From the NCBI GenBank assembly GCA_018223125.1, contig JAAEZA010000034.1:1-47330 (forward strand): DNA of 47,330 nucleotides. Direction: 5' to 3'. Below the pieces are notes generated by a model. That model did no database searches and was not told the DNA's origin. It was given only the letters and a program-made list of their open reading frames with translations. Positions 191 to 23,167 of the stretch are shown piece by piece. This DNA comes from Paracoccaceae bacterium (lineage in GTDB: Bacteria > Pseudomonadota > Alphaproteobacteria > Rhodobacterales > Rhodobacteraceae). How positions within the stretch are numbered: the stretch's first letter is position 1; each line of letters starts with the position of its first letter. A program made the position numbers and the translations under genes.

Positions 191-1558
191 TTAAGCCGGA
201 TCACTGCCGGCAATTCCGGCAATAATTCGCAGACCCTGGGTGAAATCCGGAAAGCTCAACCCGCCCAGGGCGATCCGAACGCCTGTGTGATTCTCATGCG
301 GGCCGATGCTGAAACTGGCCCCTGCAGCAACGGCGACTCCCATCTCGCGGGCTGTGTCGACCAGACGCTGTTCCTGCTCCGCGCCGCGCGTGTCAAGCCA
401 GACATGTAGGCTGTTCGGTGCCATCTTGTAATCAAGCCCCCGAAACAGGTTTCGAACGACCGCGGCGCGATCCGACAAAGCTGCCTTTTGGCGGTCCAGA
501 AGGACTTGCGCTGTGCCGTCCATAATCCAGCGATAGGCGATTTCAGTCATCAGGTTCGTCGCCATCCAGTTCATCACCAGATGCCGGTTCGCCGCCGCCC
601 GCGCAAGATGATCGGGGACCACCAGATAGCCCACCCGCAGGCCGGGCAAGATGGATTTGGTCAGACTGGTAAAGAACAAAACCCGCTCCGGCGCCAGCGC
701 GGCCAGAGGTGGCGGCCCCTGCAACAAGGGCCCCCAAGCATGATTTTCTACGATCAGAATATCATAACGGCGGGCAATATCGACGATACGGGCACGCCTG
801 TCTGCCGTCATGACAAAACCTAAAGGATTCGTGCCACCGGGCATCAAATACAAAGCTTTTACAGGCTCTTGCGCGCAACGTTGCTCCAGTGCATCCGGGC
901 AGATACCGTCGTCGTCGACACGCACCCCTTCAAGCCGCATCCCCAGATATCGCGTCAGGGAGCGCAGGGTATGATGGCCAACATCCTCTGCCAGAACCAG
1001 ATCGCCTGCCTGAGCCGCAGTCATCAGGGCCATGCTCATCGCGCTGGTGCTGCCGTTGGTGACGACTACACCGTTGCCGCCGGAATCCAGCCCGCAAAGC
1101 TTTAACCATCGCCGCGCGGATTCCGGCTCGTCCTCCTGCGGTTCGTCAGGCCGGAACCCCGAGAGTACCGCCGCAGGCAGGGAGCGGGCCATACTGCGCA
1201 AAACCTTTTCCATCGCAATGTCGTGGGTCTGGTCCAGCACCGGCTTGATCAGGGACATGTCCAGCACCTTGTCAGCGGTCTTGCGGCTGACGAATGGCAC
1301 CGGAAATTCATCCTGCACGCCTCGCACAAAGGTGCCCCGTCCGACTTCACCGACAACCCTGCCTGCCTCTGTCAGTTTGTCATAGGCGCGGCTGACGGTT
1401 TGCACGCTCAGTTTCAGATCGAAGGCCAGTTTGCGATGGGGGGGCAGTTGGTCCCCGGGTTTGAGATCACCATGTTGAATGGCGAGTTCTATGGCCTGCA
1501 CCAGTGAACGATAGGCCGGACGGGTGATGGTTTCGGGATCGGGGAGCCATTTTGTCAT
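191..1558 (-). CDS. MocR/PdxR-type GntR-family regulator with aminotransferase-like domain
   Basis: A 455-residue cytoplasmic transcription factor. Residues about 10-80 form a GntR winged helix (LPPHRKLA, then SVQTVSRAYDKL). Residues about 100-450 are a fold-type I aminotransferase domain, the usual MocR layout and length. The Schiff-base lysine is present (K301 in SLTKSILPGLRVGY), and TNPLG carries the usual Asn. Where the family normally has D-x-x-Y contacting the PLP ring (as in EDNAYG) this protein has ENHAWG (N272, W275), so cofactor binding may be weakened or lost. It is divergent from the Lrp gene at 1624. Ectoine gene clusters also pair MocR (EnuR) with an AsnC/Lrp regulator, but no ectoine enzymes are visible here, so its effector is unknown. 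Confidence 0.9.
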   Translation of the reverse strand: MTKWLPDPETITRPAYRSLVQAIELAIQHGDLKPGDQLPPHRKLAFDLKLSVQTVSRAYDKLTEAGRVVGEVGRGTFVRGVQDEFPVPFVSRKTADKVLDMSLIKPVLDQTHDIAMEKVLRSMARSLPAAVLSGFRPDEPQEDEPESARRWLKLCGLDSGGNGVVVTNGSTSAMSMALMTAAQAGDLVLAEDVGHHTLRSLTRYLGMRLEGVRVDDDGICPDALEQRCAQEPVKALYLMPGGTNPLGFVMTADRRARIVDIARRYDILIVENHAWGPLLQGPPPLAALAPERVLFFTSLTKSILPGLRVGYLVVPDHLARAAANRHLVMNWMATNLMTEIAYRWIMDGTAQVLLDRQKAALSDRAAVVRNLFRGLDYKMAPNSLHVWLDTRGAEQEQRLVDTAREMGVAVAAGASFSIGPHENHTGVRIALGGLSFPDFTQGLRIIAGIAGSDPA

Positions 1559-1623: not shown

Positions 1624-2109
1624 ATGAGCTTCATCAAACTCGACAAACGCGATATTGCCATTTTAAAAACCCTGTCGGCAGAGGGGCGGATTTCCAAAAC
1701 CGCCCTCGCGGATCGGGTGAATCTCAGCGCGACGGCCTGTTGGGACCGTTTGCAACGGCTGGAAACCTCGGGCCTGATCAAAGGCTATCATGCAGAGGTC
1801 GAACTGCGAAAGCTGGCGCCGCATGTGACCGTTTTTGTTCTGGCCGAACTGGCCAGTCACAAGGCAGAAGCGTTCCAGACCTTCGAAACTATCGTTCAGA
1901 GCCATCCCGAAATCACCGGATGCTGGGCTTTGGGCGGTGGCTTTGATTATCTGTTACAAGTGATCAGCCGTAATATTGAAAGCTACCAGAAGCTTATCGA
2001 TACCGTATTGGAAGAGGACGCAGGACTGGCAAGATATTTCACCTATATCGTGACCAAAGCGGTGAAAGATGCACCCCTGCCGTTTGATCTTCTGTTTGGG
2101 GACGACTGA
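1624..2109 (+). CDS. Lrp/AsnC-family transcriptional regulator
   Basis: 161 residues, the normal size for the family. An N-terminal helix-turn-helix (LDKRDIAILKTL, then ISKTALADRVNLS and CWDRLQRLE) is followed by an alpha-beta RAM domain (about 65-150, including GGGFDYLLQV). Such proteins form octamers and respond to amino acids or related small molecules. It starts 65 bp from the divergent MocR start. A TTGACA lies at 1589-1594, but only a poor -10 (CATGAC) sits 17 bp downstream. It is followed, 137 bp on, by the aldehyde dehydrogenase in the same direction, which it could control. Confidence 0.92.
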   Translation: MSFIKLDKRDIAILKTLSAEGRISKTALADRVNLSATACWDRLQRLETSGLIKGYHAEVELRKLAPHVTVFVLAELASHKAEAFQTFETIVQSHPEITGCWALGGGFDYLLQVISRNIESYQKLIDTVLEEDAGLARYFTYIVTKAVKDAPLPFDLLFGDD

Positions 2110-2246: not shown

Positions 2247-3731
2247 ATGACACAGCATGCAACCTGCACCCCCGCCGGATTTTCAAATCTGAACTGCCCC
2301 GCCTTATGGCGCGAAACGGCCTATGTGGATGGCGCATGGCGCAACGGCACCGCGAAAGAGGTCTTCATCGTAACGGACCCTTCAAACGGACAAACGCTCG
2401 GGCAGGTGGCACGGCTAAACGCACAGGATGCCCGTGACGCGGTGTCTGCGGCACAGTCTACTTTTGCGCAATGGTCGGGGCTGCTTCCGCAAGAGCGTTC
2501 CCATATTCTGCGGCGCTGGTATGAACTTATGCTGGAACACAAGGAAGACCTTGCGCAGATTATGACCGCGGAACAAGGCAAGCCGATTTCTGAATCCCGC
2601 GGCGAGATCGACTACGCCGCTGCGTTCTTCGAATTCTACGCCGAAGAAGCCCGGCGGCCGAATATCGAAGGTGTGACATCCCATCTGCCCGATGCAGAAG
2701 TAGAGGTCTGGCGTGAACCTGTTGGCGTGGCCGCCCTTGTGACGCCGTGGAATTTTCCGTCTGCCATGCTGACCCGCAAGGCCGGTGCTGCACTTGCAGC
2801 GGGTTGTACCGTTGTGGCTCATCCTTCCGCCGAAACACCGTTTTCCGCTCTGGCGCTGGCTGAACTGGGGGAACGGGCCGGATTGCCCAAGGGTGTGTTC
2901 AACGTTGTCACCGGAGACGCCGCAGAGATTGTCGGGACATGGATGAATGACACCCGCGTGCGGGCGGTTTCCTTTACCGGCTCAACAGAAATCGGGCGGC
3001 TGCTGTACGCGCAGGGGGCGGACACCATCAAACGGCTGGTACTGGAACTGGGCGGCCATGCACCGTTTATTATGTTTGACGATGCAGATATGAAACGGGC
3101 CGTTACCGAAGGGATCAAGGCGAAATTTGCGACATCGGGGCAGGATTGTCTGGGTGCAAACCGCTTTTTCATTGCGCGGGATTGCTATGATAGGTTTTGC
3201 GCAGAGTTTACCAAGGCAACCCAAGCCCTGACAGTCGGGGCAGGCATTGACGATCCGGACATCGGACCACTGATGAATGAAAATGCGGTTGTTAAGCAGG
3301 AAGAACAGATCCGCGATGCGCTGGACAAGGGCGCACGGTTGTTGTGCGGCGGCAAGCGTCACGCCAAGGGGCCGCTGTTCTTTGAACCTACTGTGCTGGC
3401 CGATGTTCCCGCAAATGCGCGGATCATGCACGAAGAGACCTTTGGGCCAGTGGCGGCCATCGCAGCCTTTGACACGGAAGAAGAGGTGATCGCCCGAGCC
3501 AATGACACGGAATACGGGCTGGTCGCCTATGTTCACAGTCAGGACCCCCGCCGCATTTACCGTGCAAGTCGTGCGCTTCAATTCGGGATGGTGGCGGTAA
3601 ACCGCACCAAAGTCACCGGCGCACCGATCCCCTTTGGCGGGGTGAAACAATCCGGTCTGGGGCGGGAAGGATCGCGGCTGGGGCTGGAAGCCTTTACAGA
3701 TGTGAAATACGTCTGCCGCGATTGGGCGTGA
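2247..3731 (+). CDS. NAD(P)-dependent aldehyde dehydrogenase, succinate-semialdehyde dehydrogenase (GabD) family
   Basis: 494 residues, matching GabD along its length. It oxidises an aldehyde to a carboxylate in the cytoplasm. Visible landmarks: oxyanion Asn169 in TPWNFP, the FTGSTEIG dinucleotide loop (243-250), general base Glu267 in LELGG, and nucleophile Cys301 in GQDCLGANR. Differences from ordinary GabD: the ribose-contacting Lys is His192 (VVAHPSAETP instead of a KP motif), LGGN is LGGH, and the second Cys of TCVC is missing. AAAGGA upstream of the ATG acts as ribosome site. It is tail-to-tail with the FMN dehydrogenase, with no base between the stops. That context suggests it takes the aldehyde made by ComDE; plain succinate semialdehyde is the alternative. 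Confidence 0.85.
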   Translation: MTQHATCTPAGFSNLNCPALWRETAYVDGAWRNGTAKEVFIVTDPSNGQTLGQVARLNAQDARDAVSAAQSTFAQWSGLLPQERSHILRRWYELMLEHKEDLAQIMTAEQGKPISESRGEIDYAAAFFEFYAEEARRPNIEGVTSHLPDAEVEVWREPVGVAALVTPWNFPSAMLTRKAGAALAAGCTVVAHPSAETPFSALALAELGERAGLPKGVFNVVTGDAAEIVGTWMNDTRVRAVSFTGSTEIGRLLYAQGADTIKRLVLELGGHAPFIMFDDADMKRAVTEGIKAKFATSGQDCLGANRFFIARDCYDRFCAEFTKATQALTVGAGIDDPDIGPLMNENAVVKQEEQIRDALDKGARLLCGGKRHAKGPLFFEPTVLADVPANARIMHEETFGPVAAIAAFDTEEEVIARANDTEYGLVAYVHSQDPRRIYRASRALQFGMVAVNRTKVTGAPIPFGGVKQSGLGREGSRLGLEAFTDVKYVCRDWA

Positions 3732-4856
3732 TCAAACAGAAGGGGCGATCACCTCTGGTGTGATCTCCTCCATTCGCCGCAGGCCGAGCTGTGCCAGCGT
3801 GATGCTGACTTCCTGCGCCAGAACATCGCGCATCTGGCGCAGCCCCCCTGCCCCGTTTGCTGCAATCGCGTAGGAAAACAGCCGTCCCGCAAAGACAAAA
3901 TCCGCCCCCATAGCATAGGCTTTGACGATGTCTTCACCGCTTTGGATACCGCTGTCATAGAACAGCGGAAATTCCGGCCCCAGCGCCTCGCGGATATTTT
4001 TCAGCGCATGGATGGCAGGCGGGGCGCTGTCAAGCTGGCGGCTGCCGTGGCTTGAGACCTGCACGGCATCCACCCCCGCATCCTGCGCCCGCTTTGCGTC
4101 CCGCGCATCCATCACGCCTTTCAGAACAAGCTTGCCGGACCATTGGTCCCGCACCCGTGCCAGCGTATCCCAATCCGCGCCTGCACGGCTTTCCTCGCGG
4201 TCGAATTCTCCGAAGGCCCCGCCGAAATTGCCCATCTCCGGTTTGCCTTTGACCAGTTGGGGTAAAGACCACGCCGGATGGCAGGCGAAATCCACGAACT
4301 GGCGCGGGCCGATGCGGAAGGGCATCTTGAAGCCACGGCGCAATTCCCGCGGGCGGCGGCCCACTTCGGGCACATCCACCGTCAGCACGAGCGTCTTATA
4401 GCCTGCCGCACTGGCCCGTGCGATCAGTCGCTCCGCCGTTCCGGTTGACCGGCTGATGTAAAGCTGGAACCAAGCGTTGCCCTGTGATTGCTCCCACATG
4501 TCTTCCAGAGAGGTAGAAGCGACGGTGCTGACACCAACGGGAATATGATCTTCCGCTGCCATACGTGCCAGCAACCTGTCCGCACAAGGACTGGCCAGAT
4601 TGCACATTCCCATCGGCGCGATCCCGAATGGCAATTTGCATGCGCGATCAAACACCTGCCCTGCGATGCTCCGGTCTTCAACGTTGTTCAGAACGCGCGG
4701 TTGCAGTTTTATCCCGTCAAGGGCAGCACGGCTTGCCCGCGCGCCGCAACCCGTCCCCGCCGTCCCGTCGATATAATCAAACACCATCCACGGCAGCCGC
4801 CGCTTCGCGATCCGGCGGGCGTCTTCGTAACTGTGGATCGCATTATCGAAAAACAT
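3732..4856 (-). CDS. FMN-dependent 2-hydroxyacid dehydrogenase (LldD/glycolate oxidase family)
   Basis: 374 residues from the ATG at 4856, where the family's normal N-terminus (MFFDN, then FDYIDGTAG) begins; longer frames upstream run through tctB. It oxidises an L-type 2-hydroxyacid to the 2-oxoacid through FMN. Visible residues: Tyr28, QLY at 131-133, Lys246 (VLKG), catalytic His270 and Arg273 in SSHGSRQLD (usually SNHGGRQLD), and the phosphate-binding FAGR loop at 322-325. The neighbours argue against plain lactate: it closes the comDE-tctCAB operon. In sulfolactate users, stereospecific dehydrogenases feed sulfopyruvate to ComDE, so a sulfolactate dehydrogenase is plausible; other anionic hydroxyacids remain possible. 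Confidence 0.88.
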   Translation of the reverse strand: MFFDNAIHSYEDARRIAKRRLPWMVFDYIDGTAGTGCGARASRAALDGIKLQPRVLNNVEDRSIAGQVFDRACKLPFGIAPMGMCNLASPCADRLLARMAAEDHIPVGVSTVASTSLEDMWEQSQGNAWFQLYISRSTGTAERLIARASAAGYKTLVLTVDVPEVGRRPRELRRGFKMPFRIGPRQFVDFACHPAWSLPQLVKGKPEMGNFGGAFGEFDREESRAGADWDTLARVRDQWSGKLVLKGVMDARDAKRAQDAGVDAVQVSSHGSRQLDSAPPAIHALKNIREALGPEFPLFYDSGIQSGEDIVKAYAMGADFVFAGRLFSYAIAANGAGGLRQMRDVLAQEVSITLAQLGLRRMEEITPEVIAPSV

Positions 4857-4885
4857 TGCGGGCGTCCCTTTCCGACAGGTCCGGT

Positions 4886-5335
4886 TCAGGGTAGCGGTAC
4901 ATTCAACACATATTTGAACAGGGAAAAGAAACAAACCATGACCACCGCGCCGCTGCTCCAGTAGAGCAGCACCGTTCGTGTTGTCCATTTGTCGTGCATC
5001 GCCGCGATCAGGCCACCGGCAAAGGCGATCACACCAGCGGGAAGGAAGCCGATCACCGGCATCACAAAACAGGCAGCCAGCATGCTGACCACCAGCAGAA
5101 TACGCCGCCACCAGACGCCGGGACCAAAACCGCCGCGATCCGTGGGGCGCAGCAGGCGGATGATGAACGACAATCCGGCAGTGACAATCAGGATAACTGC
5201 CACGGTCTGGGGAAAAACCTGACTGTCGCGATCCGTATAACTTGCCGCATCATAAAGCGTCGCCGCGCCTGCCAGCATGAAAAACGCCGATGTTAGCAGG
5301 GAACCGATATGCCCTTGTGAAGTAGAGACGCTCAT
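4886..5335 (-). CDS. tctB: Tripartite tricarboxylate transporter small membrane subunit (TctB family)
   Basis: 149 residues from the ATG at 5335, whose ATGA overlaps the tctA stop by 4 bp; the longer frame upstream is not TctB-like. Four hydrophobic segments are visible: near the N-terminus (SLLTSAFFMLAGAA), SQVFPQTVAVILIVTAG, WRRILLVVSMLAACF with GFLPAGVIAFAGG, and LLYWSSGAVVMVCFF near the C-terminus. TctB is the poorly conserved small partner of TctA in the inner membrane. Assignment rests on size, topology and its place between tctA and the dehydrogenase. Confidence 0.85.
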   Translation of the reverse strand: MSVSTSQGHIGSLLTSAFFMLAGAATLYDAASYTDRDSQVFPQTVAVILIVTAGLSFIIRLLRPTDRGGFGPGVWWRRILLVVSMLAACFVMPVIGFLPAGVIAFAGGLIAAMHDKWTTRTVLLYWSSGAVVMVCFFSLFKYVLNVPLP

Positions 5336-6837
5336 TCCGGGACTCCTTGCGTGGCTTTGGCGCGTCGTTTGCCCATGAACACCGGCAAAACCAGCGTGAT
5401 CAGTGTAAAAGCGATAATCCCCTGAGAGATCGGACGCCCGAAGAACATTCCGGTCAGGTTGTTGGTCGCCGCACCGATGGTCCAGCCCTGCACAAACCCC
5501 TGTTCGGCAATCGGGCCGAGGATCAGGCCCAGCACAATCGGGGAGGCCGCGAATCCGAACCGCGCGACAACCCAGCCGAAGACACCAAGACACAGCATGA
5601 TCACTACATCAGAGATACTGTTTCGGATGGCAAAGGTGCCAATGATTGTCATAAAGCCAACCGCCGGAACAAGCACGGCCTTCGGGATGGTAACGATGGA
5701 TTTATAGGCATAGCGCCCGATCAGCAGGCCCGCAGGCAGCATCATAATCGTTGCAATGATCAGCCCGTAAATGAAGGTGTAAACGATAGAACCGCTTTGC
5801 TGGAACATGGTCGGACCCGTGCGCACGCCTTGCACCAGCAAAGCGCCCAGAACGATGGCATCCGGCGGCGTGCCGGGAATTCCGAGAACCAGCGTCGGGA
5901 TGAACCCGCCACCCACGGTCGCGTTATTGGCGGATTCAACGGCCATGATGCCATCGGGTTCGCCCTCGCCGAATTTCTGATGGGGTTTTGCGCCGCGCTT
6001 TACTTCGGAATAAGCCACAAGCCCCGCAACCGATCCCCCTGCGCCCGGCAGGATACCGACCAGCGTGCCGATGATCGAAGAGCGGACAAGATTGAATTTG
6101 GAGCGCATAGCCAGACCGAACGCCTCTCCGATGCGCACGGATTTCACGTCTTTTTCAACCTTCAGATGCCGGTCCGGTACGGCCACAAGGTCTATCAGGA
6201 CGGGAATGCAATAAAGCCCGATCAATGTGCCCACGACACCAAAGCCGCTGATCAGGGTCTGGCTGCCAAAGGTCAGGCGGATGTCTGCGGAAATCTCGGC
6301 CACGCCGACAGTGGACAAAATCATTCCGAAGGCCCCGCCGGCCAGACCTTTCATCAGGTTGCCTGTGGACAGGGAAGCGATCAGGGACAGGCCAAAGACC
6401 GACAGCCAGAAGTATTCGACCGGACCAAAGGCCAGCGCCACTTTGGACAGGGGCGGCGCAAGCAACAGCAGCGCAAAGGCCCCGATCAGGCCGCCGCAAA
6501 CCGAGGCAAAACAGGCCAGCGCCACGGCAAGGTCTCCGTCCCCTTTCTTGGCCATCGGATAGCCGTCAAAGGTGGTCGCAATCGCGGAAGGCGTGCCGGG
6601 CGTATTCAGAAGAATGGCGGCATAGGCCCCGCCATAAAGGGCACCAGTATAAATCGCCCCCAGCAGGATCAGCGCCGACGCAGGATCCATGCTGAAGGTG
6701 ATCGGCACCAGAACAGCCAGTGCCATTGTTGCGGTCAGGCCGGGGATAGATCCGACAATCGTCCCCGCTGCCACGCCGAACAGTGCCAAACACAGGTTGA
6801 ACGGCGTCGCGGCGGTTAGAAAATGGTCAAAATTCAT
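5332..6837 (-). CDS. tctA: Tripartite tricarboxylate transporter large permease (TctA family)
   Basis: 501 residues with about a dozen transmembrane segments, the expected length for TctA. Family signatures include GSIPGLTATMALAV near the N-terminus, YGGAYAAILLNTPGTPSA, and the internal repeat GILPGAGGSVAGLVAY with LGIPGTPPDAIVLGALLVQG. It is the channel subunit of a cation-driven importer that receives ligand from TctC. The gene follows tctC by 25 bp and overlaps tctB by 4 bp. The substrate cannot be read from TctA; neighbouring enzymes suggest an anionic 2-hydroxyacid. Confidence 0.95.
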   Translation of the reverse strand: MNFDHFLTAATPFNLCLALFGVAAGTIVGSIPGLTATMALAVLVPITFSMDPASALILLGAIYTGALYGGAYAAILLNTPGTPSAIATTFDGYPMAKKGDGDLAVALACFASVCGGLIGAFALLLLAPPLSKVALAFGPVEYFWLSVFGLSLIASLSTGNLMKGLAGGAFGMILSTVGVAEISADIRLTFGSQTLISGFGVVGTLIGLYCIPVLIDLVAVPDRHLKVEKDVKSVRIGEAFGLAMRSKFNLVRSSIIGTLVGILPGAGGSVAGLVAYSEVKRGAKPHQKFGEGEPDGIMAVESANNATVGGGFIPTLVLGIPGTPPDAIVLGALLVQGVRTGPTMFQQSGSIVYTFIYGLIIATIMMLPAGLLIGRYAYKSIVTIPKAVLVPAVGFMTIIGTFAIRNSISDVVIMLCLGVFGWVVARFGFAASPIVLGLILGPIAEQGFVQGWTIGAATNNLTGMFFGRPISQGIIAFTLITLVLPVFMGKRRAKATQGVPE

Positions 6838-6862
6838 AGACGTCTCTCCGGCGTGACCAGTG

Positions 6863-7816
6863 TTATTTAATGAGTCCGGCTTCGCGGGCGTCCTTCAGAT
6901 ACTCTGCTTCACGCTCTGCCATGAAGGCATCCATTCCGTCGGCATCCACATCCAGAAGCGCAAAACCCGCATCCAGCATCTTTTGGCGGAAGGCTTCATC
7001 CGTATTCACCGCGCTGATCATGTCGGACCACATTTTGGTGGTCTCTTCGCTGGCGGTATTTGGCAGGGCAATCCCGCGATAGGCACCGCCCACCATGTCA
7101 TAGCCGAGTTCCTTGAAAGTTGGCACATCAGGGAACAAGGGATGGCGTTCCTCCATCGCAACGGCCAGCAGCCGCACCGCATCCCCCTGCGCCGCCCCGA
7201 CGGTGGTATAACCCCACTCCGCCTTGACCTGTTTGCCCAGCAACGCCGTTACAGCCGCACCTGTTCCCTTGAAAGGAACATAGGTGGTCATCGCGCCGGT
7301 CATCTTGTCAAACTTGATCTGTGCCAGATGGTTTGCGCTCGCCTTGCCGGAACCCGAAATCGTCACCTGACCGGGGTTTGCCTTGGCATCCGCCACCAGA
7401 TCTTCGAGTGTCTGGTAAGGGCTGTCCGCTGTTACGACGATTGCGTCCGGTGTGAAATGGAACATGTGGAAGATGTTAAGATCTTCCGTCTTGAAGCCCA
7501 CATCCTTTTGCGCCGGTTTGATGACGATATGGGGCAGATTCACGCCCATGATGGTCTGTCCGTCACCGCTCAACCCGTTGAGCGAGGCCCAGCCAACCGC
7601 GCCACCGCCCCCGGGCTGGTAGGACACTACCAGATCCTGCCCGAATTTTTCCTTAAAGAACGGTTGCTGCATCCGCGCAGAGATGTCGGACTCCCCGCCC
7701 GGACCGAATGGAATGATGTAATTGACCGGACCGCTCAGCTCTGCCGATGCGACGGATGCAAGACTGGTAACCAGCGCCATTGCGGCACCGGCTTTCAAAA
7801 TGGTTCTTCTCAGCAT
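6863..7816 (-). CDS. tctC: TTT periplasmic substrate-binding protein (TctC/Bug family)
   Basis: 317 residues with a signal peptide of about 25 (MLRRTILKAG, hydrophobic core, ASA). The mature part begins with the family's ligand loop IPFGPGGESD, where Bug proteins hold a carboxylate, followed by QPGGGGAVG and a second ligand region near TISGSGKASANHL. A strong ribosome site, GGGAGG, lies 6 nt before the ATG at 7816. It sits 45 bp after comE and heads the transporter genes, in the order tctC-A-B. Confidence 0.93.
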   Translation of the reverse strand: MLRRTILKAGAAMALVTSLASVASAELSGPVNYIIPFGPGGESDISARMQQPFFKEKFGQDLVVSYQPGGGGAVGWASLNGLSGDGQTIMGVNLPHIVIKPAQKDVGFKTEDLNIFHMFHFTPDAIVVTADSPYQTLEDLVADAKANPGQVTISGSGKASANHLAQIKFDKMTGAMTTYVPFKGTGAAVTALLGKQVKAEWGYTTVGAAQGDAVRLLAVAMEERHPLFPDVPTFKELGYDMVGGAYRGIALPNTASEETTKMWSDMISAVNTDEAFRQKMLDAGFALLDVDADGMDAFMAEREAEYLKDAREAGLIK

Positions 7817-7861
7817 AATTTTCCTCCCTATTGTGCTGTAAAGCTTAATTCTGTTGATCTA

Positions 7862-8425
7862 TCAGGTATTTGCCTCCCGTATCGCTGTCATAAACCTGTC
7901 GCGGATCACAACCGGATCCTTGGTAATGACAGGTACCTTGATATTTCCACTTTCGCATTTACACACGATGATCGTCATCTTGTCACCCGCAATCGCCTCG
8001 CGCATCACATCGGCGCAGTCTTCGGCCTGACATTCGATTACAGTTTCACAGCCGCAGGCTTTGGCCACCGCAGCCAGAGACGTTTTCTTCCCTGCATAAG
8101 TTGGTTGGTCGCCGGTCGAGCCGTAGCTGCCATTGTCGATGATCAGCAGGATAAAGTTGTCCGCCACGTTATTCGCAATGGTGGGCAACGTGCCGAAATT
8201 CGTAAGAACCGAGCCGTCACCGTCAATCGAGATCACCTTCTTGTCCTGCGCCAGTGCAACCCCCAGACCGATAGAGGACGCCAGCCCCATCGTCCCTAAC
8301 ATGTAGAAATTTGTCGGCTGGTCATCGAGCATGTGCAGTTCCTGACTGGGCAGACCGATATTACAAACGACAAACTGGTCGGAAATGACAGGAACAAGCT
8401 CTTTCAAAACATCAGATCGGATCAT
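7862..8425 (-). CDS. comE: ThDP-dependent decarboxylase beta subunit, ComE (sulfopyruvate decarboxylase) family
   Basis: 187 residues, the size of ComE. It carries the ThDP-Mg site: MGLASSIGLGVALA, then the motif starting GDGS (about residues 68-71), and NGSYGSTGDQ, where the acidic residue and Asn coordinate the metal. With ComD it decarboxylates 3-sulfopyruvate to sulfoacetaldehyde. The start ATG overlaps the comD stop by 4 bp, so the subunits are coupled. Phosphonopyruvate decarboxylase is the closest alternative but is usually one fused chain; the split form favours ComDE. No sulfoacetaldehyde acetyltransferase (Xsc) is in the window, so substrate remains inference. Confidence 0.8.
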   Translation of the reverse strand: MIRSDVLKELVPVISDQFVVCNIGLPSQELHMLDDQPTNFYMLGTMGLASSIGLGVALAQDKKVISIDGDGSVLTNFGTLPTIANNVADNFILLIIDNGSYGSTGDQPTYAGKKTSLAAVAKACGCETVIECQAEDCADVMREAIAGDKMTIIVCKCESGNIKVPVITKDPVVIRDRFMTAIREANT

Positions 8426-8928
8426 TGGTCGCCGTAGCCTCCCCAGAAGGTTGCATCGGTCAGGATCGCGACCGGTTTATTGCACATGAATGTATATTTC
8501 AGAATTGTATCCAGTTCCTCCGCATCGGATTGCTGGTGGAAGTGATAGGTCGGGATGTGAAGCTGGTTCAGCAATGCCTTGGTATGGACAGCCATTTCTA
8601 CCTGACAGGCCACCGGCTCTTTTAACTCTCCGCGATAGGAAATCAGCATCGGCAACGGCATCCGGTAGAATTGTGTCAGCGTCACCAGCGTATTAACCGT
8701 CACACCGATCGCAGTGTTCTGCATGATAATGGCGGAGCGTTTCCCCCCCATAAACGCACCGGCGCAGATCCCGATGCCCTCGTCCTCTTTATTGCTCGGA
8801 ATGTGATAGATGTCCTTGCAGGCGTCGATTTCATCAATTACCCCTGCCAGTTGTTTGCACGGCACGGTTGTCACCAGTTCGATGTCGTTATTCACGAAAT
8901 CCGCGACGATCTTTTTGTCTATATCCAC
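8422..8928 (-). CDS. comD: ThDP-dependent decarboxylase alpha subunit, ComD (sulfopyruvate decarboxylase) family
   Basis: 168 residues from a GTG start at 8928; no better ATG lies upstream, and the start matches the usual ComD beginning (a short helix then TTVPC). The pyrimidine-binding half shows the conserved acidic stretch SNKEDEGIGICAGA, which should hold the Glu that activates ThDP, then GGKRSAIIMQNTAIG. It is the first gene of the leftward operon comD-comE-tctC-tctA-tctB-FMN dehydrogenase and faces the divergent LysR gene across 130 bp. Regulation by that LysR protein is likely. Confidence 0.8.
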   Translation of the reverse strand: MDIDKKIVADFVNNDIELVTTVPCKQLAGVIDEIDACKDIYHIPSNKEDEGIGICAGAFMGGKRSAIIMQNTAIGVTVNTLVTLTQFYRMPLPMLISYRGELKEPVACQVEMAVHTKALLNQLHIPTYHFHQQSDAEELDTILKYTFMCNKPVAILTDATFWGGYGDQ

Positions 8929-8981
8929 GGTAAGATCCCAAAAATTACAGTCCCCGCCTACCGTTGTTGTAAAGGCGAACT

Positions 8982-9004
8982 AAATCAAATCATTAATATT
9001 TGCG
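8982..9004. promoter_or_regulatory. Candidate LysR operator between comD and lysR
   Basis: AAATCAAAT (8982-8990) and ATTTGCG (8998-9004) flank a 7-bp AT-rich spacer, giving an inverted CAAAT/ATTTG pair in the divergent comD-lysR spacer. The same two blocks recur at 9973-9989 before the GlcD-type gene, with a 1-bp spacer. Sharing by both flanks of the LysR gene suggests a common regulator. Not tested. Confidence 0.45.
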
Positions 9005-9058
9005 TTTAAGTAAAGAATCTGTTTATTTGCGATACTGCCCCGCCAGCGAAAGCACCCG

Positions 9059-9952
9059 ATGACCATTTCCCTGTTCAAAACCCTTATCGCGATTTCCGAA
9101 CACGGCAGCTTTAGCGCCGCTGCCGAAGAAATCTGCGTCACCCATGCAGCAGTGGGCCAGCAAATGAAACGGCTGGAGGATTCGCTGAATGTGGCACTGT
9201 TTGACCGTTCAGCCAAAACCCCGCGGTTGAACCAGCTTGGCAAGGCGCTGGTGCCCAAGGCCAAAGCAGTTGTGGCGGAATATGAAACCATTCTGGATGA
9301 TCTGACCGGCGATCCCCGTATGATCGGGGAACTGGTATTGGGGGCGGTCCCCTCCACCATCCGCGGATTGATCCCGCAGGCGATGAAGCGGCTGATCCGG
9401 CTTTATCCCGATTTGCACATCCGTGTGGTGCCGGACCTGTCCCCGAACCTGCTGGAACAGATCGAACGGGGGTCGCTTGACGCGGCGGTGCTGAGCGAAC
9501 CCACGCGCCTGTCCCGCAATCTGGACTGGAAACCTTTCGTGCGGGAAGAACTGGTTCTGCTCACTTCCCCCGAAGTACAAGAGGACGATCCTTTCGAAAT
9601 CCTCGCGCAGAAACCATATATCCGCCACACGCGGCAGGCCTCTGTCGGGATGCTGGCCGAAGAATGGCTGTCCGACAATAAGGTAACGGTTCATGATGCG
9701 ATGGAAATGGGGTCTCTTGAAAACCTCGCCAGCATGATTGCCCATGACCTCGGGGTGTCTGTCGGGCCGAACATCTGCGTCCCTGACCCGATTTTTGAAG
9801 GGCTGCGGAAAATTCCCCTTGGGCCGACCGCAACAGCGCGAACCTTGGGTATTCTGACGCGCACCGATTGTTCTAAAATCCGTTTGGTACAACGCCTGTT
9901 TGACCAGATTCACAGCACAATCGAAGACAACCACCCCGGGCGCGCGCTTTAA
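9059..9952 (+). CDS. LysR-family transcriptional regulator
   Basis: 297 residues, standard for the family. The winged helix-turn-helix is at about 3-62 (LIAISEHGSFSAAAEE, THAAVGQQMKRLED), followed by a linker helix and a periplasmic-binding-like effector domain from about 88 (LVLGAVPSTIRGLIPQA). It is divergent from comD and 74 bp upstream of the co-directional GlcD-type gene, so it probably controls both arms of the hydroxyacid cluster, with the pathway substrate or an intermediate as inducer. Confidence 0.93.
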   Translation: MTISLFKTLIAISEHGSFSAAAEEICVTHAAVGQQMKRLEDSLNVALFDRSAKTPRLNQLGKALVPKAKAVVAEYETILDDLTGDPRMIGELVLGAVPSTIRGLIPQAMKRLIRLYPDLHIRVVPDLSPNLLEQIERGSLDAAVLSEPTRLSRNLDWKPFVREELVLLTSPEVQEDDPFEILAQKPYIRHTRQASVGMLAEEWLSDNKVTVHDAMEMGSLENLASMIAHDLGVSVGPNICVPDPIFEGLRKIPLGPTATARTLGILTRTDCSKIRLVQRLFDQIHSTIEDNHPGRAL

Positions 9953-9972
9953 AATCTCTTTACATTCCCTAA

Positions 9973-9989
9973 AAATCAAATGATTTGCG
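9973..9989. promoter_or_regulatory. Candidate LysR operator before the GlcD-type gene
   Basis: AAATCAAATGATTTGCG contains the perfect 11-bp palindrome CAAATGATTTG. It lies about 40-55 bp before the start of the FAD dehydrogenase and repeats the half-sites found in the comD-lysR spacer, though with a different spacer length. Confidence 0.45.
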
Positions 9990-10026
9990 AAAGAAAGGCT
10001 TTCATATAGGTTTGAGCCGACTTTGA

Positions 10027-11484
10027 ATGAAATCAAGACGGGCGCCGACCATGACAGCAGGTTTTACTCCTCCCGAACCGCAGGCTGTGACCGCCTTGCA
10101 AGACATTACCGGATCCGGCGGCTGGCGCACCGGCGCGGATATGGCCCGTTATTTCGAAGACCCGCGCGGGCGGTTTACCGGACAGGCAGCACTGGTCTTG
10201 CTGCCCGATACAGTGGAAGCGGTGGCAAATATCGTGCGCTACTGTTGTGCGCAGAAAATCGGCATCATTCCCTACAGCGGTGGCACCGGTGTTGTCGCCG
10301 GTCAGCTTTCGCCGGACAGCCCCCATGCAGTCATCGTATCGCTTGAACGAATGAACAAGGTTCGCGAACTCTCTGTCGAAGACGGGGTTCTGGTGGCCGA
10401 AGCCGGATGTATCCTGCAGGATATACATTCCCGCGCCGAACAGGAAAACATGATCTTTCCCCTTAGCATGGCGTCAAAGGGCAGTTGCTGCATCGGCGGC
10501 AATCTGGCTACGAATGCAGGTGGTATTCAGGTTTTGCGCCATGGCAATGCAAGGGATCTTTGCATTGGGGTGGAAGCGGTTTTACCGGACGGATCCATTC
10601 TGCGCGAACTCAGCCCGTTACGTAAAAACAACACCGGTTACGATCTGCGCCATCTGCTGATCGGAAGCGAAGGTACCCTTGGCATCATCACCGCCGCCAG
10701 CCTTGTTCTGAAACCGCGGGATCCGGAATCTGTCACCGTATTTTGCGCGATCCGCGATCATTCGGATGGGGTCAAACTCTACAAGGAACTCCGCGCCTCC
10801 CTTGGCGAGTCTTTGTCCGCCTTTGAACTGATGAGCGGCTTTGGCGTAAGTCTCGTACGCAGCCATTTTCCCAAGCTCCCCGCCCCCTTCGCCGGAAAAC
10901 ACCCCTGGCACCTGCTGTTGCAATTTGACGGCCCAAGCGGATTGAATGACGCGGTAGAACCCGTTCTGGCGCGGATGTTTGAAGAGGAACTTCTGGTGGA
11001 CGCGGTTGTTGCCCAGTCCGAAACCCAATCGGAAGACCTTTGGGCCCTGCGGGAAAACACGCCCGAGGCAAACCGCATGGAAGGCGCATTCTGCAGCAGC
11101 GATACATCCGTGCCGATCCGCAAAATCGGGCAATTTGTGAATGAAACCAAAGCAGCGCTGCACGACATTCATGCAGGATTGCGGGTAAACACCTATGGTC
11201 ATATCGGGGATGGTAATATTCATCACAACGTTTTTGCCCCCGATGGAACCACAAAGGGTGAATTCATTCAGGCGCATCCCCACATCATCGACGCGGTTCG
11301 TATGGCGATTAATGAAGTCACCCACCGGAACGGCGGTTCGATCAGTGCCGAACATGGTATCGGACGGTTGAAGGCAGCCGATCTGGAGTCTTATGCAAGC
11401 TCTGCCAAACAGAATGCGCTTCGCAGTATAAAAAACGCGCTGGACCCGTTTAACATTATGAATCCCGGCGCCCTGATCCGCTAA
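10027..11484 (+). CDS. FAD-linked 2-hydroxyacid dehydrogenase (GlcD / D-lactate dehydrogenase family)
   Basis: About 485 residues. The PCMH-type FAD domain spans roughly 45-225: LVLLPDTVEAVANIV, PYSGGTGVVAGQ at the pyrophosphate, GGNLATNAGG, and GSEGTLGIIT. The C-terminal FAD-oxidase domain holds the metal/substrate motif GHIGDGNIHHNV and ends with SAEHGIGRLK. Family members oxidise D-2-hydroxyacids and pass electrons to the respiratory chain. Paired with the FMN enzyme at 3732, it would let the cell use both enantiomers, as described for sulfolactate degraders. An ATG at 10051 (residue 9) is an alternative start; neither has a strong ribosome site. A LysR-type palindrome lies upstream. Confidence 0.88.
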   Translation: MKSRRAPTMTAGFTPPEPQAVTALQDITGSGGWRTGADMARYFEDPRGRFTGQAALVLLPDTVEAVANIVRYCCAQKIGIIPYSGGTGVVAGQLSPDSPHAVIVSLERMNKVRELSVEDGVLVAEAGCILQDIHSRAEQENMIFPLSMASKGSCCIGGNLATNAGGIQVLRHGNARDLCIGVEAVLPDGSILRELSPLRKNNTGYDLRHLLIGSEGTLGIITAASLVLKPRDPESVTVFCAIRDHSDGVKLYKELRASLGESLSAFELMSGFGVSLVRSHFPKLPAPFAGKHPWHLLLQFDGPSGLNDAVEPVLARMFEEELLVDAVVAQSETQSEDLWALRENTPEANRMEGAFCSSDTSVPIRKIGQFVNETKAALHDIHAGLRVNTYGHIGDGNIHHNVFAPDGTTKGEFIQAHPHIIDAVRMAINEVTHRNGGSISAEHGIGRLKAADLESYASSAKQNALRSIKNALDPFNIMNPGALIR

Positions 11485-11555
11485 CCCCAGCCCCGATTCC
11501 CTTTACGCCATCGGCGAATTTCCACCCGTGAAATCCCGCTGTAGGGGTGTTGCTA

Positions 11556-11588
11556 TTGTTTCTGTCGAATTGAGAACATATAGTGAAC
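11556..11588 (+). promoter_or_regulatory. SOS promoter with LexA box; probable leaderless start
   Basis: GAAC-ATATAGT-GAAC (11574-11588) is the reverse complement of GTTC-N7-GTTC, the LexA box of Alphaproteobacteria. A sigma-70-like promoter overlaps it: TTGTTT (11556-11561), a 17-bp spacer, and TATAGT (11579-11584). Transcription would begin about 7 nt after the -10, at or next to the ATG at 11591, so the mRNA is probably leaderless. LexA bound here would cover the -10. Confidence 0.75.
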
Positions 11589-11590
11589 AC

Positions 11591-12826
11591 ATGAGCACAC
11601 GATCCATAGAATCCAAACTTGCCATCCTCAGCGATGCCGCAAAATATGATGCGTCCTGCGCCTCCTCCGGCTCCACCAAACGGGATTCCCGTGATGGTAA
11701 GGGGCTTGGATCCAATGGCGGCAGCGGTATCTGCCATGCCTATGCTCCGGACGGGCGCTGTATTTCGCTGTTGAAAATCCTGATGACGAATTTTTGCATT
11801 TACGATTGCGCCTATTGCGTCAACCGCGTGTCATCAAATGTAGAGCGGGCACGGTTTACGGTGGATGAGGTTGTCAAACTAACCATCGAATTCTACCGCA
11901 GAAATTACATTGAAGGGCTGTTTCTGTCCTCGGGCATTATCCGCTCTCCGGATGTGACCATGTCAGAAATGGTGCAGATCGCCCGCAAGCTGCGACACGA
12001 AGAAAACTTCCGCGGTTATATCCATCTTAAAACAATTCCCGATGCTGCGCCGGAACTGATTGCCGAGGCCGGATTGCTGGCGGATCGGCTGTCTATCAAT
12101 GTGGAACTGCCCACCGATGCGGCTGTCACCCAATACGCCCCGGAGAAAGACCCTGCGCAGATTCGCAAGGCGATGGGCCATGTCCGCTTGCGTAAAGAAG
12201 ATAGCAATGACCGTTCTCATACCGGAAAGCGGCCACCAAAATTCGCACCGGCGGGACAGTCTACACAGGTCATTGTCGGGGCGGATGCGTCTAACGATGC
12301 GACGATCCTTGGCCAGTCTACGCGGCTCTATTCCAGTTACGGTTTGAAACGGGTCTATTATTCTGCCTTTTCGCCGATCCCTGACAGTTCCCAAAACCTG
12401 CCCCTGATCCGCCCGCCCCTGAAGCGGGAACACCGGTTGTATCAGGCAGACTGGCTGCTGCGCTTCTACGGGTTTGAACTGGATGAAATCACAGATGTAA
12501 CCAAAGACGGGAATCTGGAATTGGATTACGATCCGAAACTGGCTTGGGCGCTGGCCCATCGCGGGCTGTTTCCGCTCGATGTGAATAGGGCTAGCCGCGA
12601 GATGTTGCTGCGCGTGCCCGGTTTCGGCGTGCGCACAGTGAACCGCATCCTGTCCACACGTCGGCACCGCAGCCTGCGATACGAAGATCTGACCCGAATG
12701 GGCGTATCCATGAAAAAGGCCCGCGCTTTTGTAACGGTGACGGGATGGTCGCCGAATAAGCTGACTGACAGTGCGGACCTGCGTGCCAGATTCGCCCCGC
12801 CACCGGAACAATTGTCGCTGTTATGA
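11591..12826 (+). CDS. Putative DNA modification/repair radical SAM protein with C-terminal HhH domain
   Basis: 411 residues from the ATG at 11591. The [4Fe-4S] motif CxxxCxxC is at Cys69, Cys73 and Cys76 (NFCIYDCAYCVNR), so it should cleave S-adenosylmethionine to a radical; the substrate is unknown. A helix-hairpin-helix unit near the C-terminus (DVNRASREMLLRVPGFGVRT) suggests DNA contact. The family is typically encoded beside UdgX-like proteins, as here: its stop overlaps the udgX start by 4 bp (ATGA). An upstream LexA box ties it to DNA damage. An in-frame start at 11528 is unlikely because it would put the promoter and operator inside the gene. Confidence 0.88.
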   Translation: MSTRSIESKLAILSDAAKYDASCASSGSTKRDSRDGKGLGSNGGSGICHAYAPDGRCISLLKILMTNFCIYDCAYCVNRVSSNVERARFTVDEVVKLTIEFYRRNYIEGLFLSSGIIRSPDVTMSEMVQIARKLRHEENFRGYIHLKTIPDAAPELIAEAGLLADRLSINVELPTDAAVTQYAPEKDPAQIRKAMGHVRLRKEDSNDRSHTGKRPPKFAPAGQSTQVIVGADASNDATILGQSTRLYSSYGLKRVYYSAFSPIPDSSQNLPLIRPPLKREHRLYQADWLLRFYGFELDEITDVTKDGNLELDYDPKLAWALAHRGLFPLDVNRASREMLLRVPGFGVRTVNRILSTRRHRSLRYEDLTRMGVSMKKARAFVTVTGWSPNKLTDSADLRARFAPPPEQLSLL

Positions 12827-14310
12827 CCGTAGTCGTGACCATGCCGATGATCGGCACCGCACAGGCGTGGCGGGATGCGGCGCGCGGGCTGATCAACGCG
12901 AACATACCCCCCTGCGATGTCAGTTGGGGGGATGAAACCGCCCCCGCCGGTTTATGGGACAGCCCCCCGCCCCCCTGCACCGGCAAGGTTCTGACGGTGC
13001 CAAAGGAATTCCTTTCCATCGCCCGCTCGGTTGTCTGGCACAGCGATCCGGCACGGTTTTCACTGCTTTATCAGGTTTTGTGGCGGTTGCGGGACACGCC
13101 CGGATTGCTGCAGGATCGGGCTGATCCCGAACTGGCCAGATTGCGGCAGTTGCAGAAAAACGTCCACCGTTGCCAGCACAAGATGAAAGCCTTCGTGCGT
13201 TTCCGCGAAATTGGTTCCCCCGATGATCCGCGCCGGTCCTTTGCGGCATGGTTCGAGCCAAGCCATTTCACCGTGGAACCGACCGCGCCATGGTTTGCCC
13301 GCCGCTTTGGCGATATGGACTGGCGCATCATAACACCAAGCGTCACGGCCAGTTTCATTGACGGAGAGCTGCGTTACGCTGAAGGCCAAAGCAAACCGCC
13401 CCTGCCCGAAGACGCGAGCGAACAGCTCTGGACCACCTATTTTCGCAACATTTTCAATCCGGCACGGGTGAAAGTGAAAGCGATGCAATCGGAGATGCCA
13501 AAGAAATACTGGAAGAATATGCCAGAGGCCGCCGCCATTCCCGATCTGATCGCTTCGGCCCCTGCCCGCGTCCGTGCGATGAACGATGCCGCACCGACCC
13601 TGCCGCCGCTGCGCGTGGAGAAGGTACAGCAGCAACTTGCACAGTTACCGGAGTCGGTCTGGTCCGGTAACGCCGATGCGCTGCGCGCCGAAATCTCTGC
13701 CTGTACCCGCTGCCCGCTGCATTGCCACGCCACACAAGCGGTGCACGGCGAAGGACCGATGGATGCGGCCCTGATGATTGTCGGGGAACAACCGGGCGAT
13801 ACCGAAGACCTCGCCGGGCGGCCTTTTGTTGGTCCCGCGGGTAAGCTGTTGGATCAGCTATGTGCAGAAACAGAGGTAGACCGCAGCAAAGCTTATATTA
13901 CCAATGCCGTGAAACACTTCAAATTCAAGCCACGAGGCAAGCGAAGGATTCACCAACAGCCCAGCACGACCGAAGTGGAGCAATGCAAATGGTGGCTGGA
14001 CGCCGAACGGGCAGCGGTTCAGCCCCGCGTGATCCTTGCAATGGGGGCCAGTGCCGCGTTGTCGTTAACCGGCAATGGGAAAGATATGCGCAACCGGCGC
14101 GGCAGGGTTCATCAACTGGATGACGGAACACCAGTGGTGCTGACCTTCCATCCTTCGTACCTGCTGCGCCTGCAAGACCCTGACGCTCGGGAAGCCGCAA
14201 CCGATTTACTGCGAACAGACCTGACCCGAGCACATCAACTGGCGCAGAATCTTGCGGTCAGGATAACACCTGATGGCGGCGGCGCACCTGTTCGGGCCGC
14301 CCCGCAATAG
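12823..14310 (+). CDS. udgX: UdgX-family uracil-DNA binding protein fused to an N-terminal DUF4130-type domain
   Basis: 495 residues in two parts. About 1-255 is a DUF4130-type DNA-metabolism domain (AWFEPSHFTVEPTAPWFARRF). About 280-480 is a family-4-like uracil-DNA glycosylase domain: iron-sulfur cysteines starting ACTRC (294, 297), motif GEQPGDTEDLAGRPFVGPAGK, and HPSYLLR. The loop KRRIH (373-377) is the UdgX hallmark; in mycobacterial UdgX this His forms a covalent bond to the abasic sugar after uracil removal, so His377 is the expected crosslinking residue. Mycobacterial UdgX stands alone, whereas here it is the C-terminal half. The gene is coupled to the radical SAM gene and its 3' end overlaps the codA-like gene by 53 bp. 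Confidence 0.9.
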   Translation: MTVVVTMPMIGTAQAWRDAARGLINANIPPCDVSWGDETAPAGLWDSPPPPCTGKVLTVPKEFLSIARSVVWHSDPARFSLLYQVLWRLRDTPGLLQDRADPELARLRQLQKNVHRCQHKMKAFVRFREIGSPDDPRRSFAAWFEPSHFTVEPTAPWFARRFGDMDWRIITPSVTASFIDGELRYAEGQSKPPLPEDASEQLWTTYFRNIFNPARVKVKAMQSEMPKKYWKNMPEAAAIPDLIASAPARVRAMNDAAPTLPPLRVEKVQQQLAQLPESVWSGNADALRAEISACTRCPLHCHATQAVHGEGPMDAALMIVGEQPGDTEDLAGRPFVGPAGKLLDQLCAETEVDRSKAYITNAVKHFKFKPRGKRRIHQQPSTTEVEQCKWWLDAERAAVQPRVILAMGASAALSLTGNGKDMRNRRGRVHQLDDGTPVVLTFHPSYLLRLQDPDAREAATDLLRTDLTRAHQLAQNLAVRITPDGGGAPVRAAPQ

Positions 14311-22852: not shown

Positions 22853-23143
22853 TGCTCTACTCTTGTTTTTGCCACATAGATGTTGAATAACGGGAATTGA
22901 CAGAAAGAGCAAAACCGAATTTTCGATATTTTCCTGTAATCCCCCGATTCGGATGAAAAACAGGAAAAACAGGTCGAATTGCCGGGTCAGATAAAAAATA
23001 AGGGGACAGCAACCCTGCCTATACAGGCAAATAAGGTGACACCGTGGCTCCGATAAGGTGACACCTTGAATGTCCCCCTTAACCAATAAACCTTATCTAT
23101 TCCTCTTTTTTAAGTTTTTCTCTCTTTTTCCCGATATTTCAAA
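22853..23143. other. Putative origin of replication
   Basis: This AT-rich spacer separates parA from the divergent initiator gene. It contains tandem GAAAAACAG (22955-22963, 22964-22972), an inverted TTTTCCTGT near 22930, and the ATAAGGTGACACC iterons at 22998-23065 with inverted partial copies at 23071-23081 and near 23091. A possible parAB promoter is TTGCTC (22912-22907), 17 bp, TATTCA (22889-22884) on the minus strand. Position and repeats suggest the replication origin. Confidence 0.55.
22998..23065 (+). repeat. Iteron-like repeats
   Basis: ATAAGGTGACACC occurs exactly at 23031-23043 and 23053-23065, 22 bp apart. A diverged copy, ATAAGGGGACAGC, is at 22998-23010. Two-turn spacing upstream of an initiator gene is typical of initiator-binding iterons. 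Confidence 0.6.
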
Positions 23144-23167
23144 GTGATTGACAAAAAACGGGAATTC

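Follow-up and report, generated by a model that had tools for sequence, protein, structure and literature searches.

A probable sulfolactate-use cluster of the Slc/ComDE type with an unlinked xsc gene, beside an ectoine module in a Paracoccaceae bacterium

A 47,330-nucleotide stretch of DNA from a marine Paracoccaceae bacterium (assembly GCA_018223125.1, contig JAAEZA010000034.1; hereafter the window) carries a predicted split sulfopyruvate decarboxylase, ComDE, in a block with an importer, two flavin dehydrogenases, a LysR regulator and an aldehyde dehydrogenase, which raises the question of what substrate the block serves and what becomes of the sulfoacetaldehyde that ComDE would form. Sulfolactate is a common sulfur compound from plant and algal sulfolipids; together with 2,3-dihydroxypropane-1-sulfonate (DHPS) it is described as a large marine sulfur and carbon currency, with the handling of both enantiomers a live question (PMC11131964). 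The initial annotation of the window had proposed that sulfoacetaldehyde is oxidised by the adjoining aldehyde dehydrogenase, for example to sulfoacetate, rather than desulfonated by Xsc. We found a full-length xsc elsewhere in the same genome and the aldehyde dehydrogenase in an ectoine context, and we are rather confident that the window contains a Slc/ComDE-type sulfolactate-use cluster with an unlinked Xsc, beside an unrelated ectoine module.

The ComDE cluster and its relatives

The window is the whole of contig C56 in a 3.9-Mb genome (98 contigs, 98.99% complete), and every gene named in the initial annotation (comDE, tctCAB, lysR, genes for a flavin mononucleotide (FMN)- and a flavin adenine dinucleotide (FAD)-dependent 2-hydroxyacid dehydrogenase and a GabD-like aldehyde dehydrogenase gene) was present in one block at 2247–11484 (Table 1). 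On the minus strand the order, 5' to 3', is comD-comE-tctC-tctA-tctB-FMN dehydrogenase gene, with 4-base overlaps between comD and comE and between tctA and tctB, the latter following from our choice of the tctB start codon at 5335. The lysR and FAD dehydrogenase genes diverge from comD across a 130-base gap, and the aldehyde dehydrogenase and FMN dehydrogenase genes converge tail to tail, as had been described, with 0 bases between their stop codons. The identical order is kept in two further genomes of the genus (locus L179 of G031 and locus L180 of G004), so chance alone does not account for the block. The closest named genome among the matches listed was that of Neptunicoccus sediminis CY02 (ComD 99% identical).

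Table 1. Features of the sulfolactate cluster and of the adjoining ectoine module in the window.
Feature	Coordinates	Strand	Basis
MocR-type ectoine regulator (EhuR/EnuR), outside the sulfolactate system	191–1558	-	NF052286, 561.2 bits (cut-off 480)
Lrp/AsnC regulator of the ectoine module, outside the sulfolactate system	1624–2109	+	Lrp Pfam hits; homolog beside the aldehyde dehydrogenase in 8 of 10 ComE-less genomes
Probable Ssd/DoeC-like aldehyde dehydrogenase of the ectoine-use module, outside the sulfolactate system	2247–3731	+	Ectoine context; SafD model, 284.7 bits (cut-off 700)
FMN-dependent L-2-hydroxyacid dehydrogenase, SlcD-like, last gene of the ComDE operon	3732–4859	-	Pfam FMN_dh, 389.5 bits
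TctB, small membrane subunit of the importer	4886–5335	-	Pfam TctB, 50.2 bits
TctA, large membrane subunit of the importer	5332–6837	-	Pfam TctA, 447.5 bits
TctC, periplasmic binding protein of the importer	6863–7816	-	Pfam TctC, 123.6 bits
ComE, predicted sulfopyruvate decarboxylase beta subunit	7862–8425	-	TIGR03846, 238.9 bits (cut-off 221.5)
ComD, predicted sulfopyruvate decarboxylase alpha subunit	8422–8928	-	TIGR03845, 149.9 bits (cut-off 147.95)
comD-lysR divergent intergenic region, possible LysR operator	8929–9058	.	Short TTTAC-type stretch, similarly placed in relatives, judged by eye
LysR-type regulator, divergent from comDE	9059–9952	+	Pfam HTH_1, LysR_substrate
FAD-linked D-2-hydroxyacid dehydrogenase (GlcD / D-2-hydroxyglutarate dehydrogenase superfamily), downstream of lysR	10027–11484	+	Pfam FAD_binding_4, FAD-oxidase_C

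For comparison we used the best 80 of at least 559 confirmed ComD loci; percentages apply to close relatives alone, and the set may lack records of the own genome. Locus types were set by tblastn identity thresholds of our own choosing, a half-query-length requirement shifts one locus (L015) from the hps type to the remainder, and loci ending at a contig edge can miss neighbouring genes. Outside the 80, loci L191, L192, L195, L198, L201, L202 and L210–L212 were mapped by tblastn only, L196 was both mapped and listed, and L204–L207, L209 and L213–L223 were left out of the analysis. DHPS-pathway (hps) genes accompanied ComDE in 58 of the 80 loci, 41 of which also contained an FMN dehydrogenase gene of the window type; seven loci were of the tripartite tricarboxylate transporter (TTT) type, one being the Neptunicoccus region itself; seven had LysR as a neighbour and neither TTT nor hps genes (three of them with the FMN gene), and eight were of other types, including L015 with a partial hps gene at a contig end.

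Both subunits of the decarboxylase scored above the cut-offs of the curated sulfopyruvate decarboxylase models, in agreement with the earlier assignment to the ComDE family, and ComE contains a GDG...N motif, which we take to be the thiamine diphosphate (ThDP) motif. Phosphonopyruvate decarboxylase was considered as an alternative and rejected, its model (cut-off 312.5 bits) giving 131.1 bits for ComE and 75.5 bits for ComD. In a joined ComD and ComE tree of 84 rows (the 80 loci, the window, L179, L093 and L193; no experimentally studied Slc sequence is among them), the window, L179 and L013, which is apparently the same region as L180 (judged partly by gene positions), grouped with six Roseovarius/Sulfitobacter clusters in a nine-row clade (support 100/99). 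A complete tctCAB in the order C-A-B adjoins comDE, all three products scoring above the Pfam gathering thresholds, and TctA and TctC were 87–89% and 80–81% identical, respectively, to those of the six clusters. The FAD-LysR pair was divergent from ComDE-TctCAB in all nine rows of the clade, and 7 of the 80 ComD loci combined TTT, FAD, LysR and ComDE genes in a single block. TTT importers as a group take many substrates, and in Roseovarius nubinhibens and Chromohalobacter the one described for sulfolactate is SlcHFG, with tctB after tctA (PMC5812351). Because ComD and ComE pass their cut-offs and the window falls in a clade with six clusters of the same layout, decarboxylation of sulfopyruvate to sulfoacetaldehyde by ComDE, and uptake of sulfolactate by the cluster's own TTT system ahead of its conversion to sulfoacetaldehyde, are well supported predictions; the initial annotation, which had left the substrate as sulfolactate or another anionic 2-hydroxyacid, is thus supported as to the importer, and in the light of the SlcHFG literature the substrate is most likely sulfolactate. 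A second ComDE of the same genome (L093, contig C81, 2259–5010) is 83% identical. Upstream of it a full-length ThDP enzyme is encoded, assigned to the 5-guanidino-2-oxopentanoate decarboxylase subfamily at 529.8 bits (cut-off 500); a similar order, with a ThDP enzyme matching Xsc at 24–25% followed by ComDE, was seen in N. sediminis (L076) and in G031 (L198).

The two dehydrogenases would both feed ComDE, as had been proposed and as their Pfam matches and the cluster context suggest. Among solved structures the FMN protein matched (S)-mandelate dehydrogenase (6bfg, the best-scoring) and L-lactate oxidase, and its family is described as oxidising L-2-hydroxy acids (PMC10153336). Homologs (at least 55% identity) were found in 45 of the 80 ComD loci, 41 of which have hps genes upstream of ComDE; in these 41 the gene accompanying hps and comDE is 59–66% identical to that of the window. 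Because this hps-ComDE-FMN order matches the hpsN-hpsO-hpsP-hpsQ-slcD order of Ruegeria pomeroyi (SPO0594–0598, PMC4334477), the FMN protein is taken, by gene position, as the putative counterpart of SlcD (SPO0598). The FAD protein, whose best solved relatives are the putative oxidoreductase 3pm9 and D-2-hydroxyglutarate dehydrogenase (6lpn), had homologs (at least 55%) in all seven TTT-type loci and in 0 of the 73 other ComD loci. Under the Cahn-Ingold-Prelog rules we reason that sulfur outranks the carboxylate, so that L-sulfolactate is (R) and D-sulfolactate is (S). Given that HpsN makes (R)-sulfolactate (PMC11382572), that the FMN gene accompanies hps genes and that SlcD is drawn as an R-sulfolactate dehydrogenase in a figure legend of 2024 (PMC11131964), the simplest assignment is that the FMN enzyme probably acts on (R)- and the FAD enzyme on (S)-sulfolactate.

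The FMN dehydrogenase gene after tctB is what distinguishes the window cluster from the six Roseovarius/Sulfitobacter clusters. Four of the six TTT loci without the FMN gene have an enolase-superfamily (MR_MLE_C) gene directly after tctB (L020, at 14107–15270, L022, L029 and L062), in L019 such a gene lies about 5 kb downstream of tctB, and none was found in L031. The product of this gene is a possible candidate for a sulfolactate racemase or lyase, and in Roseovarius it might racemise or otherwise convert the second enantiomer. That one TTT cluster holds an FMN dehydrogenase of the L type together with an FAD dehydrogenase of the D type is mildly new and the sole unusual feature of the cluster; in the open-access literature searched we found no paper on such a sulfolactate dehydrogenase pair and no statement as to whether SlcD uses FAD or FMN. 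We tentatively suggest, while leaning somewhat against it, that the Neptunicoccus TTT-ComDE region has assembled a stereo-complementary flavin pair, which would pass electrons from both enantiomers directly to the respiratory chain, with no need for the NAD(P)-linked SlcC/ComC pair. The divergent LysR gene, with homologs (at least 50%) in 14 of the 80 loci including L013, is likely the regulator of the cluster; the search for its operator gave an uneven alignment across relatives and no perfect dyad in the window, and the TTTAC-type stretch is weak.

xsc elsewhere in the genome

A whole-genome search identified a full-length xsc on contig C39 (947.9 bits, cut-off 676.4). None of the six Xsc-family matches of the genome was located on C56, so that the earlier statement that Xsc is missing is correct for the window and incorrect for the genome. 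Among 121 genomes (the own genome and 120 relatives; E-value limits 1e-50 for ComE and 1e-150 for xsc), ComE was found in 30 and xsc in 57, the latter including G001 with a partial xsc of 561.6 bits, below the family cut-off, which 56 of the 121 genomes pass. xsc was present in 27 of the 30 genomes with ComE and in 30 of the 91 without (Fisher p = 3e-8, the genomes not being independent), and the three ComE genomes lacking it are 72%, 71% and 93% complete. In G017 the genes are adjacent, with comDE directly before xsc. Under the proposed mechanism, SlcHFG-like TctCAB would import 3-sulfolactate, the two flavin dehydrogenases would oxidise it to 3-sulfopyruvate (FMN acting on the L-(R) and FAD on the D-(S) form), ComDE would convert this to sulfoacetaldehyde, and the unlinked Xsc would release acetyl phosphate and sulfite.

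Several observations weigh against this scheme. ComD clears the TIGR03845 cut-off by a mere 2 bits, and the enantiomer assigned to the FAD enzyme follows the habit of its superfamily. Xsc also serves taurine and isethionate degradation, so that the presence of xsc by itself proves no sulfolactate route, and within G000–G071 the co-occurrence of ComE and xsc is weaker (xsc present/absent in 27/3 genomes with ComE and 25/17 without, p = 0.007). None of the 80 ComD loci had xsc (at least 60% identity) within its flanks, and the link between the two therefore derives from genome-level co-occurrence and the one adjacent case; since these 80 relatives usually lack a local xsc, its absence is not special to the window. 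For the subsequent step, no match of the own genome exceeded the cut-off of the Pta family (TIGR00651), the three best hits lying in 758–784-amino-acid frames that we take to be malic-enzyme fusions. Contig C58 encodes a Pta/Ptb-like protein of 312 amino acids (a candidate only), a taurine-type binding protein (below cut-off) and a molybdopterin oxidoreductase, presumably parts of a sulfonate-sulfite branch.

Another contig, C90, contains genes for an HpsN-like protein (78%) and an hps-type alcohol dehydrogenase (63%) at 8622–10915 of locus L194, and no ComDE or FMN gene was found in the 14.2 kb read there. Because these DHPS-type genes stand without ComDE and an FMN gene of their own, the cluster in the window may in addition handle sulfolactate that derives from DHPS.

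The aldehyde dehydrogenase and competing explanations

The genes on the far side of the aldehyde dehydrogenase point to ectoine use. An Lrp/AsnC and a MocR-type regulator precede it (Table 1), the left ends of C56 and C74 have 55 bases in common, and the first genes on C74 are those of a tripartite ATP-independent periplasmic (TRAP) transporter and of the ectoine hydrolase DoeA (630.1 bits, cut-off 613), while two genomes of the same genus (L199 and L200) show the run aldehyde dehydrogenase-Lrp-MocR-TRAP-DoeA. The homolog search, in which an E-value limit of 1e-190 dropped weaker homologs before the count, gave 13 genomes. In the 10 of them that lack ComE the homologs are 63–73% identical, a class III aminotransferase of one family follows in 10 of 10, and a further ectoine gene (DoeA, DoeB, a 46–50% MocR homolog or TRAP) occurred in the stretches read in 7 of 10. 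Of these aminotransferases, the three that were scored all pass NF005684, a model named only 'hypothetical protein'; by their context they would be Atf. The published ectoine layout is asnC-ssd-atf, in which Ssd/DoeC oxidises L-aspartate semialdehyde (PMC5924519, PMC13188858). Because the MocR gene, the TRAP and DoeA genes of C74 and the aminotransferase-flanked homologs fit this layout, the aldehyde dehydrogenase is most likely a neighbour from another pathway, an aspartate-semialdehyde dehydrogenase (Ssd/DoeC) of the adjoining ectoine module, with no part in the sulfolactate route. Two observations speak against a plain ectoine reading: the FMN dehydrogenase gene occupies the site after ssd where atf is expected, an aminotransferase of the same family being found on C43 instead (826.2 bits, with one in-frame TAA flagged), and no DoeB of the own genome exceeded the cut-off (best 80.5 against 402.7 bits). 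The ectoine module has been rearranged in this genus, with ssd lacking an adjoining atf.

Oxidation of sulfoacetaldehyde to sulfoacetate by the adjacent enzyme, in place of desulfonation by Xsc, would be in keeping with the absence of a spacer between this gene and the operon, with its membership of the aldehyde dehydrogenase family, with the lack of the atf that would complete an asnC-ssd-atf run, and with the finding of a close homolog (at least 90%) at the same place in three of three genomes of the genus where it was found (own, G004 and G031). The protein, however, ranks fourth among 17 own-genome matches to the SafD model NF047626, none of which passes the cut-off of 700 bits; the ectoine module lies on its other side, ComE-less genomes have homologs followed by the same aminotransferase family, and a homolog (at least 60%) near ComDE was confined to 1 of the 80 loci, that of Neptunicoccus. 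With xsc in the own genome and co-occurring with ComE, we regard this part of the initial annotation as highly improbable, and reject the enzyme as SafD or a local substitute for Xsc. Nor do we see much to recommend the same enzyme as a sulfolactaldehyde dehydrogenase of the GabD-2 type supplying sulfolactate to the cluster, which we hold to be just as improbable. GabD-like enzymes of this kind exist in roseobacters, such as GabD-2 of R. pomeroyi (PMC11131964). The window protein resembles succinate semialdehyde dehydrogenases (TIGR01780/GabD, 583.7 bits, below the cut-off of 646.35), yet two paralogs of the own genome, on C28 (683.1 bits) and C37 (655.5 bits), match 8c54 much better than it does (448.2 bits). 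The structure 8c54, which we take to be the Rhizobium sulfolactaldehyde dehydrogenase, bears the database name succinate semialdehyde dehydrogenase, and both paralogs also best match the E. coli succinate semialdehyde dehydrogenase 3jz4, so that 8c54 scores single out no sulfolactaldehyde dehydrogenase; the comparison is not decisive alone, and the candidate was set aside on it and on the ectoine context of the gene taken together.

The remaining alternatives concern the operon itself. Its substrate could be another anionic 2-hydroxyacid, such as phosphonolactate, a dicarboxylic hydroxyacid or tartronate, and ComDE would then decarboxylate the corresponding 2-oxoacid: both dehydrogenase superfamilies and the TTT importers (PMC5812351) accept many substrates, and the best-scoring solved relative of ComE, 9iz3, is named putative phosphonopyruvate decarboxylase beta subunit (71.7 bits). 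Against this, the two subunits exceed their sulfopyruvate cut-offs while the phosphonopyruvate model fails, and the related loci with hps genes (58 of 80, and also L015, where the match is partial and lies at a contig end) favour a sulfonate; we consider another hydroxyacid unlikely, if less so than the two roles for the aldehyde dehydrogenase discussed above. Sulfopyruvate might also be converted mainly to cysteate and desulfonated by CuyA rather than through Xsc, a known branch of the bifurcated R. nubinhibens pathway. Denger and colleagues reportedly described in 2009 such a bifurcated sulfolactate pathway, the title naming Xsc as the desulfonating enzyme. CuyA would presumably score in TIGR01275, and no own-genome match exceeded the cut-off of this model (three weak hits, the best 31.9 against 289.4 bits), a weak test that leaves the cysteate branch very unlikely as the main route in our estimate.

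Comparison with known systems and other genes of the window

The Slc pathway of R. nubinhibens reportedly comprises, in the account of Denger et al. from 2009, SlcHFG, SlcD, ComDE and Xsc. Common to it and to the system described here are a TTT importer with tctB after tctA (PMC5812351), ComDE, a putative sulfolactate dehydrogenase and Xsc; the window may differ in carrying both an FAD and an FMN dehydrogenase, and the own genome differs in having no match over the cut-off to TIGR01275, the model used for CuyA. With the hps-slcD DHPS cluster of R. pomeroyi (SPO0592–0598, PMC4334477) the window shares an FMN gene corresponding by position to slcD, but here this gene is detached from hps genes, the HpsN-like gene being on C90. 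The SlcC/ComC and SlcHFG systems of Taurinivorans and Chromohalobacter (PMC10507020, PMC11382572) combine two stereospecific dehydrogenases for both enantiomers with a TTT importer, as is predicted here, whereas they use NAD(P)-linked enzymes and SuyAB where the window has flavin enzymes and ComDE. As in ectoine clusters, the neighbours of the block include MocR, Lrp/AsnC, an Ssd-like aldehyde dehydrogenase, TRAP and DoeA/EutD on a run across C74 and C56, and they differ from published clusters in that no atf stands beside ssd, an aminotransferase of that family being on C43, and no DoeB is found over the cut-off. The mandelate pathway consists of a racemase, an FMN mandelate dehydrogenase, the ThDP enzyme benzoylformate decarboxylase and an aldehyde dehydrogenase. 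It works alike in that an FMN 2-hydroxyacid dehydrogenase is followed by a ThDP decarboxylase; the window, with a split ComDE and an adjoining aldehyde dehydrogenase from an ectoine module, is not a member.

Elsewhere in the window, the genes at 20493–23944 encode a ParA/RepA-like protein (partition_RepA, 191.3 bits, below the cut-off of 348.45), an adjacent 350-amino-acid open reading frame, for which the limits used gave no hits, and a protein carrying a DnaA N-terminal domain. The set resembles a plasmid replication and partition module, and the contig may be extrachromosomal. At 11528–14310 a radical-SAM protein, placed in the rSAM_link_UDG family at 582.8 bits (cut-off 343.5), is followed by a long open reading frame (12823–14310), which from its position we take to be its UDG-like partner, an ordinary pair.

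Slc/ComDE sulfolactate systems are already known, and the surprising part of the first interpretation, an aldehyde dehydrogenase in place of Xsc, does not hold; the corrected assignment keeps a false 'sulfoacetate branch' out of the annotation. The cluster is a compact test bed for the use of both sulfolactate enantiomers: a single importer and a single decarboxylase are combined with two flavin dehydrogenases whose families have opposite stereochemistry.

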